Shown here piece by piece: positions 31,661-38,000 of a stretch of 64,000 bases of DNA. Source of the stretch: Micromonospora purpureochromogenes (lineage in GTDB: Bacteria; Actinomycetota; Actinomycetes; Mycobacteriales; Micromonosporaceae); the NCBI RefSeq assembly GCF_900091515.1, contig NZ_LT607410.1:6510001-6574000 (forward strand), given 5' to 3'. Numbering within the stretch: position 1 is the first letter of the stretch; each line of letters starts with the position of its first letter. Under the pieces are notes generated by a model. It saw only the letters and a program-made list of their open reading frames with translations. It was not told the DNA's origin and did not search any database. The translations under genes were made by a program, and so were the position numbers.

Positions 31661-32641
31661 ATGCGACCGGCTCTCCTGGCTGGCACCCTGGCCGCCGCGC
31701 TGCTGACCGGCCTCGGTGGCTGCGCGGGCGATGAGGAGTACGCGCCACTGCGGCATCCGTTCCGCGGCGCGGCCCTCCTGGTGGACACGGACACTCAGGT
31801 GGCGCACTGGCGGGAGGAGCACAACGCGCCCTGGCTGGACCCGATCGCCGACAGGCCGCAAGCGCGCTGGCTGACCGGCCCGGGCAGCCTGGCCGACCTC
31901 GGCCCGTTGCTCGCTGCGGCACGTCAGCGGAAGGCCCTGCCGGTGGTGGTGATCTACCACATCCCGAACCTCGACTGCGCCGGCCCAACGGGCGGCGGGG
32001 CCGCCGACGCGGACGCGTACGCCGGCTTCGTCGGGCGGACCGTGGCGGCGCTCGGCGAGCGCGCGGCGGCGGTGATCCTGGAACCGGACGCGGTGGCCGC
32101 CGAGTGCTTCGACGACGCTCGCGCCGACATGCTGGCCGACGCCACCCGGGTGCTGACCGACGCCGGACACCACGTCTACCTCGACGCCGGCCATCCCCGC
32201 TGGCGCGGCCCCGAGGAGACCGCCGAGCGACTGCGCCGAGCCGGGATCACACGGGCCGAGGGGTTCTCGGTCAACGTGTCCAACCGGCAGTCCACGGCCG
32301 ACAGCCAGCGGTGGGGGCTGGCGCTGTCGAAGCTGGTCGGCGACCGAGAGATGGTCATCGACACCTCACGCAACGGGCTGCCCGCCGCCCCGGACGACCA
32401 GTGGTGCAACTCGACACCGCAGGGCCTGGGCCGGCCGCCCACCACCGATCCCGGCCTGGAGCGGGTGGCCGCCCTGTTGTGGATCAAGAGCCCGGGCGAG
32501 TCGGACGGACCGTGTGACCGCGGCGAGCCGGCCGCCGGGGTGTTCTCCCCCGCCCAGGCCCGCGATCTGATCGTGGCGGCGCCGTGGCTGCCGCCCGCCG
32601 CCCGGCAGGCGGCAGTCGAGGCCAGGGCGCCGCTCAGCTGA
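31661..32641 (+). CDS. Glycoside hydrolase family 6 lipoprotein
   Basis: ATG 31,661 gives a 326-residue protein with a lipoprotein signal (TGLGGC, lipobox Cys about 21). GH6 motifs follow: VVVIYHIPNLDCAG, VILEPDAVAAECF with the catalytic Asp, VYLDAGHPRW, GFSVNVSNRQ, IDTSRNGLP and LLWIKSPGESDGPC. GH6 enzymes cut beta-1,4-glucans. There is no cellulose-binding domain, and lipid anchoring suggests action at the cell surface. It converges on the deacetylase-glycosyltransferase gene, overlapping its end by 8 bp, and may trim the polymer that enzyme makes. Confidence 0.88.
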   Translation: MRPALLAGTLAAALLTGLGGCAGDEEYAPLRHPFRGAALLVDTDTQVAHWREEHNAPWLDPIADRPQARWLTGPGSLADLGPLLAAARQRKALPVVVIYHIPNLDCAGPTGGGAADADAYAGFVGRTVAALGERAAAVILEPDAVAAECFDDARADMLADATRVLTDAGHHVYLDAGHPRWRGPEETAERLRRAGITRAEGFSVNVSNRQSTADSQRWGLALSKLVGDREMVIDTSRNGLPAAPDDQWCNSTPQGLGRPPTTDPGLERVAALLWIKSPGESDGPCDRGEPAAGVFSPAQARDLIVAAPWLPPAARQAAVEARAPLS

Positions 32642-34846
32642 CCGGCTGCCGTCCCGCGCCGGCGGCGACCTCACCGGTACGGCGGAGTTTCTGCCACTTC
32701 AGGCGTCCGCCGCTGAGCGCGGTGATCACCGAGTGCACCAGCACCAGGTACATGACCTGCCGGTAGAGGAACTGCTGCAACGGCAGCGCCCAGAGCGGAC
32801 GCAACGGTTCGCGGTCGAGACGGAACGCCAGGATCGCGGTGACGATCTGCACCACCATGACGGCCAGCCAGGCGATGACCGTTTCGATCCGGTCGAGGAA
32901 GAACAGCCCGTAGACAGCGAAGATGTCGACGGCTGGGGCGAGCAGCGGCAGCAGTACCGAGAACAGGGCGATGAACGGCAGTCCCCGCCGGCCGAACCGG
33001 CCCGACGGCCCCCGGTCGACCAGGGCGCGACGGTGTCGCCACAACGCCTGCATGGTGCCGTAGCTCCACCGGTAACGCTGCCGCCACAGCTCCGGCAGGG
33101 TGCTCGGTGCCTCAGTACGAGCAACCGCGGTCTCCTCGTAGACCACCCGCCAGCCGGCGCGGTGGATGCCCATGGTCAGGTCGGTGTCCTCGGCGAGGGT
33201 GGCGCGGCTGAGCCCGCCGGCGCCCCGGACCGCCTCACGACGGAACGCGCCGAGGGCACCCGGGACGGTGGGCATGCAGTGCAGGGTGTCGTAGAGCCTT
33301 CGGTCCAGGCTGAAGCCGATGACGTACTCGATGTGCTGCCAGCGGCCGAGCAGCCGCCGCCGGTTGCCCACCTTGACGTTGCCGGCCACGGCGCCGACCC
33401 GCGGGTCGGCGAAGGGCTGCACCAGGCGGTGCACGGCGTCAGGCTCGACGACGGTGTCGGCGTCGACCATGACCAGCAGGTCGTTGCGGGCGAGCGCCAC
33501 CCCGGCGTTGAGGGCGGCGGCCTTGCCGCCACCCGGAACCCGGGCCACCCGCACGTTGGGTGACCCGAGGCGCTCCACCTCCTCGGCGGTGCCGTCCTCG
33601 GACTCGTCGTCCACGACCAGCACCTCGATGCCCGGGTGCGTCCCGGTCGCCAGCGAGTGCACGGCGGCGGCGATGGTGGTGCGCTCGTTGTAGGCGGGGA
33701 CGACGATCGTGACCGGATCGCTCACCTGCCCACCCCAGGACCAGGTCGAGGCTCGGCGGCGGCGGGCGTGGCCGACCGCGTAACCGAAGAGGAGCAGGGT
33801 GCGAGCCAGGGTGAGCAGCCCGACGACGATGAGCAGCAGCCACAGCACGTACACCGTGGCGTCGGCGAGCCGGACGCCCCAGACGAGCAGCGCCCCGCGT
33901 ACCTTGTCGGCGGTGTCCAGGCCGGCGGTGCCCGCGCTCGACCAGCCGAGCCCCTGGGAGACGGTGGTGAACCGGTAGCCGCGGGCCTGCATCTCCGGGA
34001 TGAAACGGTCCAGCGCGGCGAGTGTCTGCGACCGGTCGCCACCGCTGTCGTGCATCAGGACGACCGCACCCCGGTCACCCTCCGGGGTCGCGTTACGGAT
34101 GATCGCGTCCGGGCCGGGCCGGGCCGGGCCCAGTCCCGGCTGTCGGTGTCGTTGAACACCGACACGTACCCCCACCGGCCGGACTCGCGCACCACCCGCC
34201 AGCTCCCGTCGTCCAGGGAGTCCACCCCGCTGGAGTACGGCAGGCGGGCCAGCGAGGTGGTGACGCCCGTCGCGTACCCGATGGCGGCCTGGGTCTGCGA
34301 GTACTCCAGCTTCCGCCGCCAGGACGGCAGATCCGCCATTTCTGGGTGGGTGAAGGTGTGGATGCCCAACTCGTGGCCCTCACGGGTCATCCGCTCCGCC
34401 AATTGCGGGTGCCGGCTGACCTGCGAGCCGACCACGAAGAAGGTGGCCGGCGCGTGGTGACGGCTCAGGACGTCGAGCACCTTCGGCGTCCACACCGGAT
34501 CCGGGCCGTCGTCGAAGGTCAGGGCAATGGTCCGCGCCGGCATCCGCCGGGCGTCCAGGTGCCCGCCGCGCGGGTCGACCACGGTCCCGCCGTCGCGCAC
34601 CACCGCCGGCACCGCGCCGGTGCCGGCCGTACCCGTGCTGCGATGGTCGGGGGTGAAGCGGGCATTCGCGTACGCGCCGATGACGAGCACGTTCAGCAGG
34701 ATGAACGTGGCCACCGCCGCCAGCGCCCAGCGCTGGCGGTTACGACTACGCTGCCGCCGCTGCCGCGGGGCAGGCGCGAGCGGCCGGGATGACCGCAGGA
34801 TCTCGTCCGTGCCGCCAACCCGCCGACGGCCACGCCAGACGCCCAT
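32634..34846 (-). pseudogene. Polysaccharide deacetylase-glycosyltransferase, frame broken at a 5-bp repeat
   Basis: The N-terminal frame (34,846 to about 34,120) has a membrane anchor near residues 36-58 and a NodB deacetylase domain (LTFDDGPDP, LGIHTFTHPE, ARLPYSSGVDS). The second frame carries the end of that domain (VVLMHDSGGDRSQT), membrane segments, and a GT2 domain (VVPAYNE, VVDDESEDGT, VDADTVVEP, LAEDTDL, RQRYRWSYG). The two are out of frame at (CCGGG)4. With three units they join exactly as DWARPGPDAIIRN, an expected sequence. The full protein of about 735 residues would be a bifunctional membrane enzyme for an exopolysaccharide. The break may be phase variation, mutation or a sequencing artefact. 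Confidence 0.8.
34109..34128. repeat. (CCGGG)4 tandem repeat within the deacetylase-glycosyltransferase gene
   Basis: Four perfect 5-bp units at the exact position of the frame break. A change of one unit shifts the frame; three units restore a single long frame. Such tracts can change length by slipped-strand pairing. Confidence 0.8.
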
Positions 34847-35226
34847 CAGGACGACGACGCGAACAGGTCGACGCCCTGCACCACCCAGAATGCGAGGATC
34901 AGCAGGAGGGCCAGCCCGATCAGGACATACATCCCGCGGCGCAGTCGACGGCCCCGCCGGCCCGAGCCGTCAACGAAGATCGCCGCTGTCACGTCCGAAG
35001 GCTGAAGCAGCGCGGTGGCGGCGTCGACCGGCTCGTCGACGTCGGCCGGCGCGGCAGGGGTGGCCACATCCGGGCCCACGGTCGGCGCCGCAGAGGACGC
35101 CACGCCACGCACCCCTGCGTGCCCGGCGGACCCCTGCGGCCGCCGACCCGCCCGGACCCTGGCCACCCCCCGGTCGGCGGCAGACGGTTTGGTCAGGCCC
35201 ACCCGCCCGACATAACGCTTCCTCAT
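34846..35226 (-). CDS. Small membrane protein upstream of the deacetylase-glycosyltransferase
   Basis: 126 residues from ATG 35,226, 6 bp after GGAG; a GTG at 35,235 is less well placed. A basic N-terminus (MRKRYVGRVGLTK) and Ala/Pro-rich middle are followed by one C-terminal membrane helix (GMYVLIGLALLLILAFWVVQ). The stop overlaps the next ATG (TGATG), so it is co-translated with the enzyme. A role as an assembly partner is inferred from that coupling only. Confidence 0.7.
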   Translation of the reverse strand: MRKRYVGRVGLTKPSAADRGVARVRAGRRPQGSAGHAGVRGVASSAAPTVGPDVATPAAPADVDEPVDAATALLQPSDVTAAIFVDGSGRRGRRLRRGMYVLIGLALLLILAFWVVQGVDLFASSS

Positions 35227-35519
35227 GTTCTCCACGGTGGAGACATACCCCCAACCGCGTGATCGACTACCGTTGACCTGCGAAGATCAGTTGATTCGGC
35301 CGGATCGGGCCAGTGTCGGGTGCCGGCCAGAACGACAATTCCGGGCGAACGCCAACGTTCAACGCAGCACCTTTTGTGCGGCGCTCGCCAACGGGCGGGC
35401 CGTCGTCGATCGCGGTGCAGACGAACGGTTTGGCGGTTGCCGAAGATCACTCGGCTCTCTACGCTGCCAAAGCCCGGGCGGATGCCCGGCGTCAAGTCTC
35501 TGACAATCATGGGGCATTC

Positions 35520-38000
35520 GTGCGCACCCTTCGCGGCGCCATCGCCGGCGCCATCGCACTTCTCATCACCTCCACAGCATCGGCCGGGGCGGCACAGGCG
35601 GCGGAAAGCGTCGTTCCTTCCGCCCCGCACACGGCCTTCACCATGAACTTCGACGGCTGGGGCTACATCGACGGAAGCTTCTCCTACGAGCCGTCCCGAA
35701 ACACACTCGAGATCTACCAGCAGAACGCCAACGGCTACGCGCTCGTCATGCGCGGCTTCGCGGCAGAGCACTGGCACTACCTGGATGTGACCCCACCCAA
35801 GGGCACCCGGTTCCTCGCCGGACAGACGTACCAGACGACGACGAACTTCTCGCCGCAGGACTCGATCACCGTCCTCAATATCAGTGGCGACGGGCAGAAC
35901 TGTGACTGGAGCAGCACGCCGGGGACCATCGCCGTCAAGGAGGCGGAATACGACGACGCGGGCAGGTTCACCGCCTTCGCCGCCACTTTCTCCGTCCCCT
36001 GCGGCTGGCGCGGCAGTGCCAAGGGCGAGATCCGCTTCCAGTCGAGCATCGGCTACAAGGCCACCGACACCTGGGGCTACCGGCTTCAGATGGGAGCGCA
36101 GCCGGCCGGCATGCGCGGTAGGACGCAGGCCATCACCGTCGAGGCGAACGGCACCGAGCCCACCACCTTCGGCGCGGCATCCCTCTCGGGGGCGGACCCT
36201 GGAGCCTTCGAGATATCGGCCAACACCTGCTCCGGCAACACCCTGACCTACGGGCAGACCTGCCAGTTGAGCATCACGCCGAAGGCGTCGGCCATCGGCG
36301 AGCAGAGTGCCGTTCTCACCTTGGTCGAGGACTCGGTCGCCGGCAAGGTCACCCGCCTGCTCTCGCTCACCGGCTACGACCCCCGCGACGCCACCGCAGC
36401 TCCGGCGTACTTCAGCTTCGGCGACGTGCCGGCGTACGAGACGTCTGTGCCGCAGACCGTGACACTCACCGGCGCCAGCGACCTCCCGATCACCTTCGGG
36501 CAGGCGACGCTCGAGGGCGACAACCGCGCCTCTTTCCGGATCACCGGCGACGGCTGCTCTCAGAAGACCCTGAACAAGGGGCAGAGCTGCTCGATGACGG
36601 CGGTCGCACGCCCGTCGTCACCGATGCAGGTGGGGGCGCTGCTGACCCTTCCGGACAACAGCTTCGCCGGCAAGACGCAGCTCTCGATGGGCGTCAACGG
36701 TTACCGCGACGACCGCGGCACCTACTACCCGGTGGCGCCCTTCCGCATCATGGACACCCGCTCCGGCAAGGGCGCTCCGAAACGCATGGTCGGGCCCGGC
36801 GAGGTGGTCAGCCTGCAGGTCACCGGATCCGGCGGCGTCACCACCGAGGCCTCAACGGTGGTGCTGAACGTGACCGTCACCGGTCCAACGATGAACGGCT
36901 TCGTCACCGTCTACCCCTCCGGCCTCTCGCGCCCGACCGCCTCCTCCCTGAACTTCACGAAGGGATGGACCGGCGCGAACTCGGTCACGGTCAAGGTGGG
37001 TGCCGACGGCAAGGTGAAGTTCTACAACCACACCGGCTCGACGCACATCATCGTCGATGTCGACGGCTACTACTCCAAGGGTCACGAGTGCTGCTCGGGA
37101 TACATGGGCGGCCAGTACCACCCGCTGTCCAAGCCGGTCCGCATCACCGACACCCGGACCTGGGGCACCGGTCGGGTGCCCCGCGAGCACTACATCAACT
37201 CCGCGGCCTCCTGGGGATCGACGATCAACCCGAGGGTCAGGGCGTTCGCGGTCAGCATCACGGCGACGCAGCCGAGTTCGTCGGGCTTTCTCACCGCCTG
37301 GGAGGGATCGCCCGACAACCTGCCGAACACATCCACGTTGAACTACACGACCGGGGCCACGGTTCCGAACTTCGCTGTCGTACCCACGACGCCGTGCGTC
37401 AACTGCGGCAGCGCGACGGGTTGGCCGTCAATCGGCGTCTACACCCACGCGCCGACGCACATCGTCGTCGACATCGTCGGCTTCTACGACGACGGGTCGC
37501 TGCCCGACGGGTTGCGCTTCCAGTCGATCGCGCCGACCCGGATCGTCGACACGCGTACCGGTCAGGGCTGGCCGTCGCGTCTCGGCCCGGGCGCCACAGC
37601 GACGGTCCCGACGCCGAAGACAATCGCGAACGTCGACACGTGGGGCCTGGCTACGAACGTCACCGCGGTGCAGCCCACCTCGACGACCGTCATGACGGTG
37701 TGGCCGTCGGGGGTGACCCGACCGAACACGTCCAGCCTCAACCCCAGGGCAGGCTCACTCGTATCCAACGCAGTGCAGACGATGATCAGCCAGGACGACA
37801 AATTCAACGTATACAACGCCTCGGGATACACCAACTTCGTGGTGGACGTCGTCGGCACCTTCAACCTGTATCCGCCGACCCCGCCCGCCGGGTGGAATAG
37901 CAATCTCACGTCCGCTGTGCCGCAACCCGGACTCCAGGCCGACAGCCGCGGAAGTGCGACACCGGAGGTGTCGACGGTCCACCTGGTGAAGCGAATCTAG
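35520..38000 (+). CDS. Large secreted protein with Ig-like and repeated DTR domains
   Basis: From GTG 35,520 a signal peptide (RGAIAGAIALLITSTASAGA, cut near AQA-AES) leads an 826-residue extracellular protein; the frame stays open 69 codons further upstream, so the start is provisional. After a beta-rich N-domain come two ASPM/SPD-2/Hydin-like segments (TTFGAASLSGADPGAFEIS; ITFGQATLEGDNRASFRI). Three repeats of a domain of about 120 residues follow, each starting like FRIMDTRSGKG, VRITDTRTWGT or TRIVDTRTGQGW and ending VDVDGYY, VDIVGFY or VDVVGTF. No catalytic motif and no LPXTG were seen. It may be a wall-binding structural protein. A strong terminator follows. Confidence 0.75.
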   Translation: MRTLRGAIAGAIALLITSTASAGAAQAAESVVPSAPHTAFTMNFDGWGYIDGSFSYEPSRNTLEIYQQNANGYALVMRGFAAEHWHYLDVTPPKGTRFLAGQTYQTTTNFSPQDSITVLNISGDGQNCDWSSTPGTIAVKEAEYDDAGRFTAFAATFSVPCGWRGSAKGEIRFQSSIGYKATDTWGYRLQMGAQPAGMRGRTQAITVEANGTEPTTFGAASLSGADPGAFEISANTCSGNTLTYGQTCQLSITPKASAIGEQSAVLTLVEDSVAGKVTRLLSLTGYDPRDATAAPAYFSFGDVPAYETSVPQTVTLTGASDLPITFGQATLEGDNRASFRITGDGCSQKTLNKGQSCSMTAVARPSSPMQVGALLTLPDNSFAGKTQLSMGVNGYRDDRGTYYPVAPFRIMDTRSGKGAPKRMVGPGEVVSLQVTGSGGVTTEASTVVLNVTVTGPTMNGFVTVYPSGLSRPTASSLNFTKGWTGANSVTVKVGADGKVKFYNHTGSTHIIVDVDGYYSKGHECCSGYMGGQYHPLSKPVRITDTRTWGTGRVPREHYINSAASWGSTINPRVRAFAVSITATQPSSSGFLTAWEGSPDNLPNTSTLNYTTGATVPNFAVVPTTPCVNCGSATGWPSIGVYTHAPTHIVVDIVGFYDDGSLPDGLRFQSIAPTRIVDTRTGQGWPSRLGPGATATVPTPKTIANVDTWGLATNVTAVQPTSTTVMTVWPSGVTRPNTSSLNPRAGSLVSNAVQTMISQDDKFNVYNASGYTNFVVDVVGTFNLYPPTPPAGWNSNLTSAVPQPGLQADSRGSATPEVSTVHLVKRI

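Follow-up and report, generated by a model that had tools for sequence, protein, structure and literature searches.

Does a tandem repeat lying between two frames of a polysaccharide gene in Micromonospora purpureochromogenes act as a switch, or does it record a recent mutation or an error in the sequence? We addressed this question for a CCGGG repeat located between a deacetylase frame and a glycosyltransferase frame. The window designates the whole stretch of 64,000 nucleotides that was analyzed.

A CCGGG tract at the junction of two reading frames

The tract, CCGGGCCGGGCCGGGCCGGGCC, is a perfect CCGGG repeat at 34109-34130 (TRF: period 5, 4.4 copies, 100% match). It reads CCCGG on the coding strand and, by frame counting, marks the point at which the frame breaks. 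The window contains two occurrences of the 15-mer (CCGGG)3, neither of them outside the tract, against a mean of 0.01 in shuffled sequences (n=100), and four CCGGG units are found nowhere else in the 6.67-Mb chromosome. In 464 kb of sequence, made up of the window and 20 sampled stretches of 20 kb, 34109-34130 was the only period-5 tract of at least 4 copies, the next one having 3.8 copies.

On the minus strand, a deacetylase frame of 263 aa is located at 34846-34055 in the four-unit state (ORF list, Pfam and frame counting). It comprises an N-terminal hydrophobic segment, a NodB/CE4 domain (Polysacc_deac_1, 7e-33 in Pfam) that runs to DWARPGP, and 19 out-of-frame residues; the LMHD stretch is absent. 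Counted from the first start codon, the GT2 frame, at 34175-32634 on the same strand (ORF list, Pfam), encodes 513 aa. These contain the end of the NodB domain, a hydrophobic segment, a PgaC/IcaA-like synthase domain and more hydrophobic segments, hydrophobicity being judged by eye. GT2 families matched this frame in Pfam (9e-34 for the best), and the best family for the glycosyltransferase half was TIGR03937 PgaC_IcaA (9e-51), with a score of 173 bits that is far under the cut-off of 422.3.

A script count of the open frame for 2, 3, 4, 5 and 6 CCGGG units gave 247, 735, 263, 252 and 740 aa, respectively. Three or six units lead to the long protein, four to the split state as found, and two or five to an early TAA stop. 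As in contingency loci, the unit number of an in-frame tandem repeat sets the reading frame at the tract. With three units the joint would be DWARPGPDAIIRN, which is the joint of P0003, an intact public relative. The preliminary description had claimed that deacetylase and GT2 frames meet at a CCGGG tract, that removal of one unit restores a single protein with the expected joint sequence, and that the product is a surface-polysaccharide enzyme. These claims agree with the Pfam domains found around the tract, with the three-unit frame, which is that of the family, and with the P0003 joint.

In an alignment of P0003 with the deacetylase 7y51, DxxDW lies before the joint and LMH after it; we take these stretches to be CE4 motifs 4 and 5, with the catalytic histidine in motif 5. 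In the window the frame is shifted between DxxDW and LMHD of the deacetylase domain, and production of the long protein is thereby lost. The product of the 263-aa frame should be inactive, because its match to the NodB profile ends at position 134 of 197. 

Two other candidate features of the joint were rejected. Programmed -1 frameshifting was discarded on the grounds that the zero frame contains no X-XXY-YYZ heptamer and that the break is kept in none of eight orthologues. A hairpin at 34095-34145 (minus strand) folds at -15.4 kcal/mol (z -1.43), a value reached by 22 of 200 shuffled sequences, and was discarded as a special feature.

Upstream of the deacetylase frame lies a gene (34846-35235, minus strand; ORF list, Pfam) for a small protein of 129 aa, with one hydrophobic stretch and no Pfam family. 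In the window its stop codon overlaps the deacetylase-frame start in a TGATG, and the same overlap, with a conserved C-terminal segment, is present in all six orthologue loci printed (L087-L092). A similar arrangement has been described in Streptomyces, where a small membrane-protein gene is located just upstream of matB with stop and start overlapping, and where MatB carries a NodB/CE4 deacetylase followed by a PgaC-like GT2 in one protein, the same architecture as here (PMC4391728, PMC5972031). The likeness is one of architecture and gene order, as these sources describe them, the 129-aa protein being the positional counterpart of MatA; unlike in MatB, a repeat unit splits the gene in the window. 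MatAB is required for PNAG production (PMC5972031). By analogy, we would say that the window gene works like MatB, leaving its polymer product unclaimed.

A second TGATG, at 34053-34057 on the minus strand (frame counting and sequence reading), joins the stop of the 263-aa frame to the ATG of a 473-aa GT2 frame, and is a possible termination-reinitiation site. Since the frame opened by this ATG contains the whole GT2 domain, and the same overlap joins the small upstream gene to the deacetylase frame in the window and in the orthologues printed, the four-unit allele might still yield an active synthase, namely a 473-aa GT2 without deacetylase, by restart at TGATG. We consider such a functional split quite unlikely. 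The TGATG arises from the codons CTG ATG, for Leu-Met in the protein itself, and is therefore no sign of design, and it is doubtful how the short form would be arranged in the membrane.

The three-unit state and the age of the break

The frame was open in all eight close orthologues (85-91% identity), with 788-956 aa between stops. Among the matches listed, 136 rows scored at least 561 bits, a cut and a count of our own; the only one with an open frame below 670 aa was that of the window itself (581 aa). Three weaker rows among the matches listed had short frames, in G069 (434 aa), G087 (466 aa) and G099 (542 aa), and are mainly matches to the glycosyltransferase part. At E <= 0.001, the GT frame was matched in 160 of 160 genus genomes, many of these matches being weak. 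Deacetylase and GT2 are fused as one protein in most of the 120 relatives listed. The joint pattern was recognized in 111 of 120 listed public proteins, 110 times with seven residues between DW and I and once at an earlier DW; nine were without a joint by this pattern. For the GT half, identity went no higher than 92% in any of the 120 listed proteins.

We then compared the joints at the DNA level. The joint was matched in 100 of 109 loci, paralogues included, the nine others being uncounted, and this gave 95 distinct sequences. Not one of these 95 homologous joints contained at least three CCCGG units, and the longest period-5 stretch among them was 13 bp. A near relative, G146 (L090), reads CCCGT CCCGG CCCGG at the joint, with the codons GCC CGT CCC GGC CCG GAC GCG for ARPGPDA. 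Passing from a G146-like state to the state of the window would require one substitution and one slip. From these comparisons, the three-unit reading is the ancestral one, and the tract seems to have arisen incidentally from the GC-rich codons that encode ARPGP, rather than as a conserved switch. A contingency locus conserved among species, or a conserved switch, was ruled out on two grounds: the tract is absent from the 95 joints, and the frame is open in eight of eight orthologues.

Other split copies exist among public sequences. In P0125, P0126, P0127, P0149 and P0217 the frame is lost after the joint, and we take these copies for cases of scattered decay or of erroneous sequence; P0127 shares with P0051 an origin in a 2,946-base contig, probably one and the same. 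In P0127 and P0217, both of them deacetylases of the family, the frame is lost only about 15 to 20 residues beyond that joint. The truncated form is itself present in the protein database as P0123, with 219 aa.

The age of the break was estimated from selection on its two sides, using a Nei-Gojobori-type count. For the deacetylase half, dN/dS was 0.21-0.30 between the window gene and the four top-scoring orthologues and 0.22-0.32 among those four. The corresponding values for the GT half were 0.12-0.14 and 0.13-0.16. Both frames are open apart from the tract, and no further lesion was found in either of them. The unchanged purifying selection on both halves and the lack of further lesions indicate that the break is recent, or else an error; a long-standing pseudogene is ruled out by the same dN/dS values and open frames.

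An error of sequencing or assembly would mean that the consensus gained a unit absent from the strain, whose gene would be intact with three units. Our basis is a single assembly, the one sequence of the species, in which an error would look identical to a real fourth unit. CCGGG arrays lie at most 70 bases from a contig end in four draft genomes (G032:C471, G038:C187, G112:C207 and G145:C185), so that this repeat appears hard to assemble. Against an error, the usual sequencing error is a one-base change in a homopolymer, unlike the clean gain of a five-base unit, and the chromosome was assembled as one contig that is 99.99% complete. Relatives matched 12.6 kb of the window and revealed no other frame break, although this test is a weak one, as only two relatives flagged the break at the tract. 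A precedent exists in the Streptomyces lividans reference, whose mat locus contained a mistake in the sequence (PMC4391728). On the whole we hold an error to be unlikely, though by no means remote.

The reading that we favour, and consider on balance probable, is a recent one-unit slip in a gene of MatB architecture, reversible in principle. In this lineage, Ala-Arg-Pro-Gly-Pro codons would have formed three CCCGG units, to which a recent slipped-strand event would have added the fourth. We infer that this fourth unit is real, born by slippage, inactivating for the deacetylase and revertible. The CCGGG unit does expand, as arrays in the genus span 4 to about 17 units, and a comparable break in G085, described below, also speaks for this reading. 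In addition, no match to MutS (PF00488) was found in the chromosome, a search that was positive in 11 of 14 control genomes, while NucS gave one match. The single mismatch-repair gene detected in this host thus belongs to a type that reportedly leaves indels uncorrected: according to a review, NucS cannot correct short indels (PMC8228993), and in a Streptomyces study the indel rate was not considerably changed by nucS loss (PMC11109965). The same review indicates that polymerase proofreading may clear most short indels (PMC8228993), which argues against very fast slippage. Even as a plain mutation, the slip would show that GC-rich Arg-Pro-Gly codons are able to create slippage-prone tracts.

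The break could also be a stable loss, perhaps selected in culture, in which dispersed growth is favoured without an aggregation polysaccharide and the gene is heading to a pseudogene. Such events are documented in Streptomyces lividans, where a matA frameshift in a non-pelleting, chemostat-selected strain and increased growth upon matAB deletion were reported (PMC4391728). The chromosome also keeps two strong further homologues, at 62 and 57% identity, whose open frames are long (1157 and 759 aa). Against such a loss, no other lesion has accumulated and selection on both halves is unchanged. We rate a stable loss as unlikely; a very young loss is indistinguishable, from one isolate, from the recent reversible slip that we favour. 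Stable loss, the functional split considered above and the phase variation considered below are refinements that overlap with this slip, and the confidences attached to them do not sum to one.

CCGGG arrays in the genus and the question of phase variation

The tract of four CCGGG units is unique in its own chromosome, and we looked at the behaviour of such arrays elsewhere. (CCGGG)4 is present in 85 of 160 genus genomes and (CCGGG)5 in 45 of 160. For a census we took all the places listed, minus three near contig ends (G066:C25, G112:C207 and G145:C185), and classed the 108 distinct arrays of at least 4 units by the G+C content of codon position 3 versus position 2 in both flanks, a test that misses genes of even composition. 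No coding signal was detected on either side of 81 arrays, 21 showed such a signal either in a single flank or on opposing strands, and three were too near an end. The remaining three had coding flanks on both sides, in one frame for L235 and with a frame change for the window and L188. An earlier run on 40 arrays with longer flanks found the same two frame changes. Random positions (n=2000), drawn from stretches other than those of the arrays in the genome studied and six relatives, were coding in one frame 999 times and coding with a frame change 42 times. It therefore seems that genes tend to exclude CCGGG arrays of this length. Frame changes at arrays are at the background level, so that a frame change alone proves nothing.

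The second frame change lies in another species, G085, where five CCGGG units (L188:1501-1525, G085:C1:2161264-2161288) are found close to the C-terminal region of what looks like a multi-pass membrane protein. In G085 the tract separates two different frames, whereas its flanks share a single frame in all 19 homologues examined (tblastn). Among 26 homologue rows listed, a count that leaves out two short G060 fragments, none has a shorter open frame than the 380 aa of G085, the next one being 428 aa. Searched as text, the C-terminus of these homologues was matched in G085 alone. The protein matched no Pfam, NCBIfam or PHROG family. Glycosyltransferase, UDP-GlcNAc 2-epimerase, GDP-mannose dehydratase, phosphomannomutase-type and nucleotidyltransferase genes are present within 20 kb. 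With L188, slip-type breaks are thus seen in polysaccharide-linked genes of two species, a suggestive finding, and one made after the fact.

A repeat that switches a gene of the PNAG pathway is known from Staphylococcus aureus, where a tetranucleotide repeat in icaC turns PNAG off and on (PMC4117637). As here, a short tandem repeat lies inside a pathway gene, and a change of one unit shifts the frame and truncates the protein. The icaC unit is a tetranucleotide and IcaC is not the synthase, whereas the window tract has a five-base unit made of G and C only; for icaC, reversibility and population variants were shown, whereas the window tract is known from one genome (PMC4117637). Mycobacterium tuberculosis phase variants are, like the case studied here, actinobacterial repeat indels, which there switch genes, but the published accounts available concern homopolymers, a pathogen and different genes (PMC11898584, PMC6667613). 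With icaC, the matA frameshift and the S. lividans reference mistake, a switch, a laboratory loss and an error each have a precedent in the PNAG pathway.

Phase variation had been proposed in the preliminary description, which regarded the tract as well suited to slipped-strand phase variation and such cases as rarely described in actinomycetes. By analogy with icaC, whose variants carry 4 to 6 tetranucleotide repeats (PMC4117637), the size of the tract is one that may slip. The rarity agrees with the literature searched for filamentous actinomycetes and does not extend to M. tuberculosis, for which homopolymer slippage variants have been published. In the accessible text of the open-licence literature on Micromonospora, Streptomyces and actinomycetes (including PMC3711429), there was no report of repeat-length switching of a polysaccharide gene in a filamentous actinomycete. 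Phase variation itself received no support from the comparison with other species, in which the tract was found in 0 of 95 homologous joints and the frame was open in 8 of 8 orthologues.

If phase variation had evolved here, CCGGG slippage would toggle the gene between bifunctional (3 or 6 units), split (4 units) and dead (2 or 5 units) states. The tract is located exactly at the break, icaC provides a precedent with reversion at about 1 per 45,000 divisions (PMC4117637), another species has a frame-breaking CCGGG tract in a polysaccharide-cluster gene, and arrays are otherwise rare between coding flanks (3/108, for 1041/2000 random positions). However, the tract is absent from the homologous joints found, frame changes are no commoner at arrays (2/108) than at random positions (42/2000), one array (L235) lies within an unbroken coding frame, and the two polysaccharide cases were not predicted beforehand. 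An evolved switch is thus possible but unproven, and we think it decidedly improbable. We give still less credit, and very little in absolute terms, to a more elaborate contingency device of Micromonospora, in which CCGGG slippage in Arg-Pro-Gly codons would affect surface-polysaccharide genes and the window gene would be a three-outcome switch: fused with 3 or 6 units, an uncoupled synthase restarted at TGATG and making a fully acetylated polymer with 4 units, and no synthase with 2 or 5 units.

Should the tract slip, it would offer a simple handle, readable by PCR, on variation of an aggregation-type polysaccharide in a filamentous actinomycete; polysaccharides of this sort govern pellet growth in fermenters. 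The case found in a second species makes the slippage idea testable.

Several additional observations were made on the arrays and on the surroundings of the gene. Among the matches listed, the longest array has about 17 units (G054:C2:785510-785594), and some arrays are located at contig ends. At L235:1501-1520 (G072:C2:2529441), (CCGGG)4 lies in a seemingly open coding frame that gain or loss of a unit would break. The 129-aa protein upstream of the deacetylase frame contains a segment like IFVDGSGRRGRRLRR, and a similar gene precedes the orthologues. A long ORF occupies 35313-38000 on the plus strand; 895 aa of it were tested and gave no Pfam match. On the other side, a glycoside hydrolase family 6 gene (31661-32641, plus strand; PF01341, 7e-46) is convergent with the operon, and proteins from relatives matched the region from 31721 to 35005.
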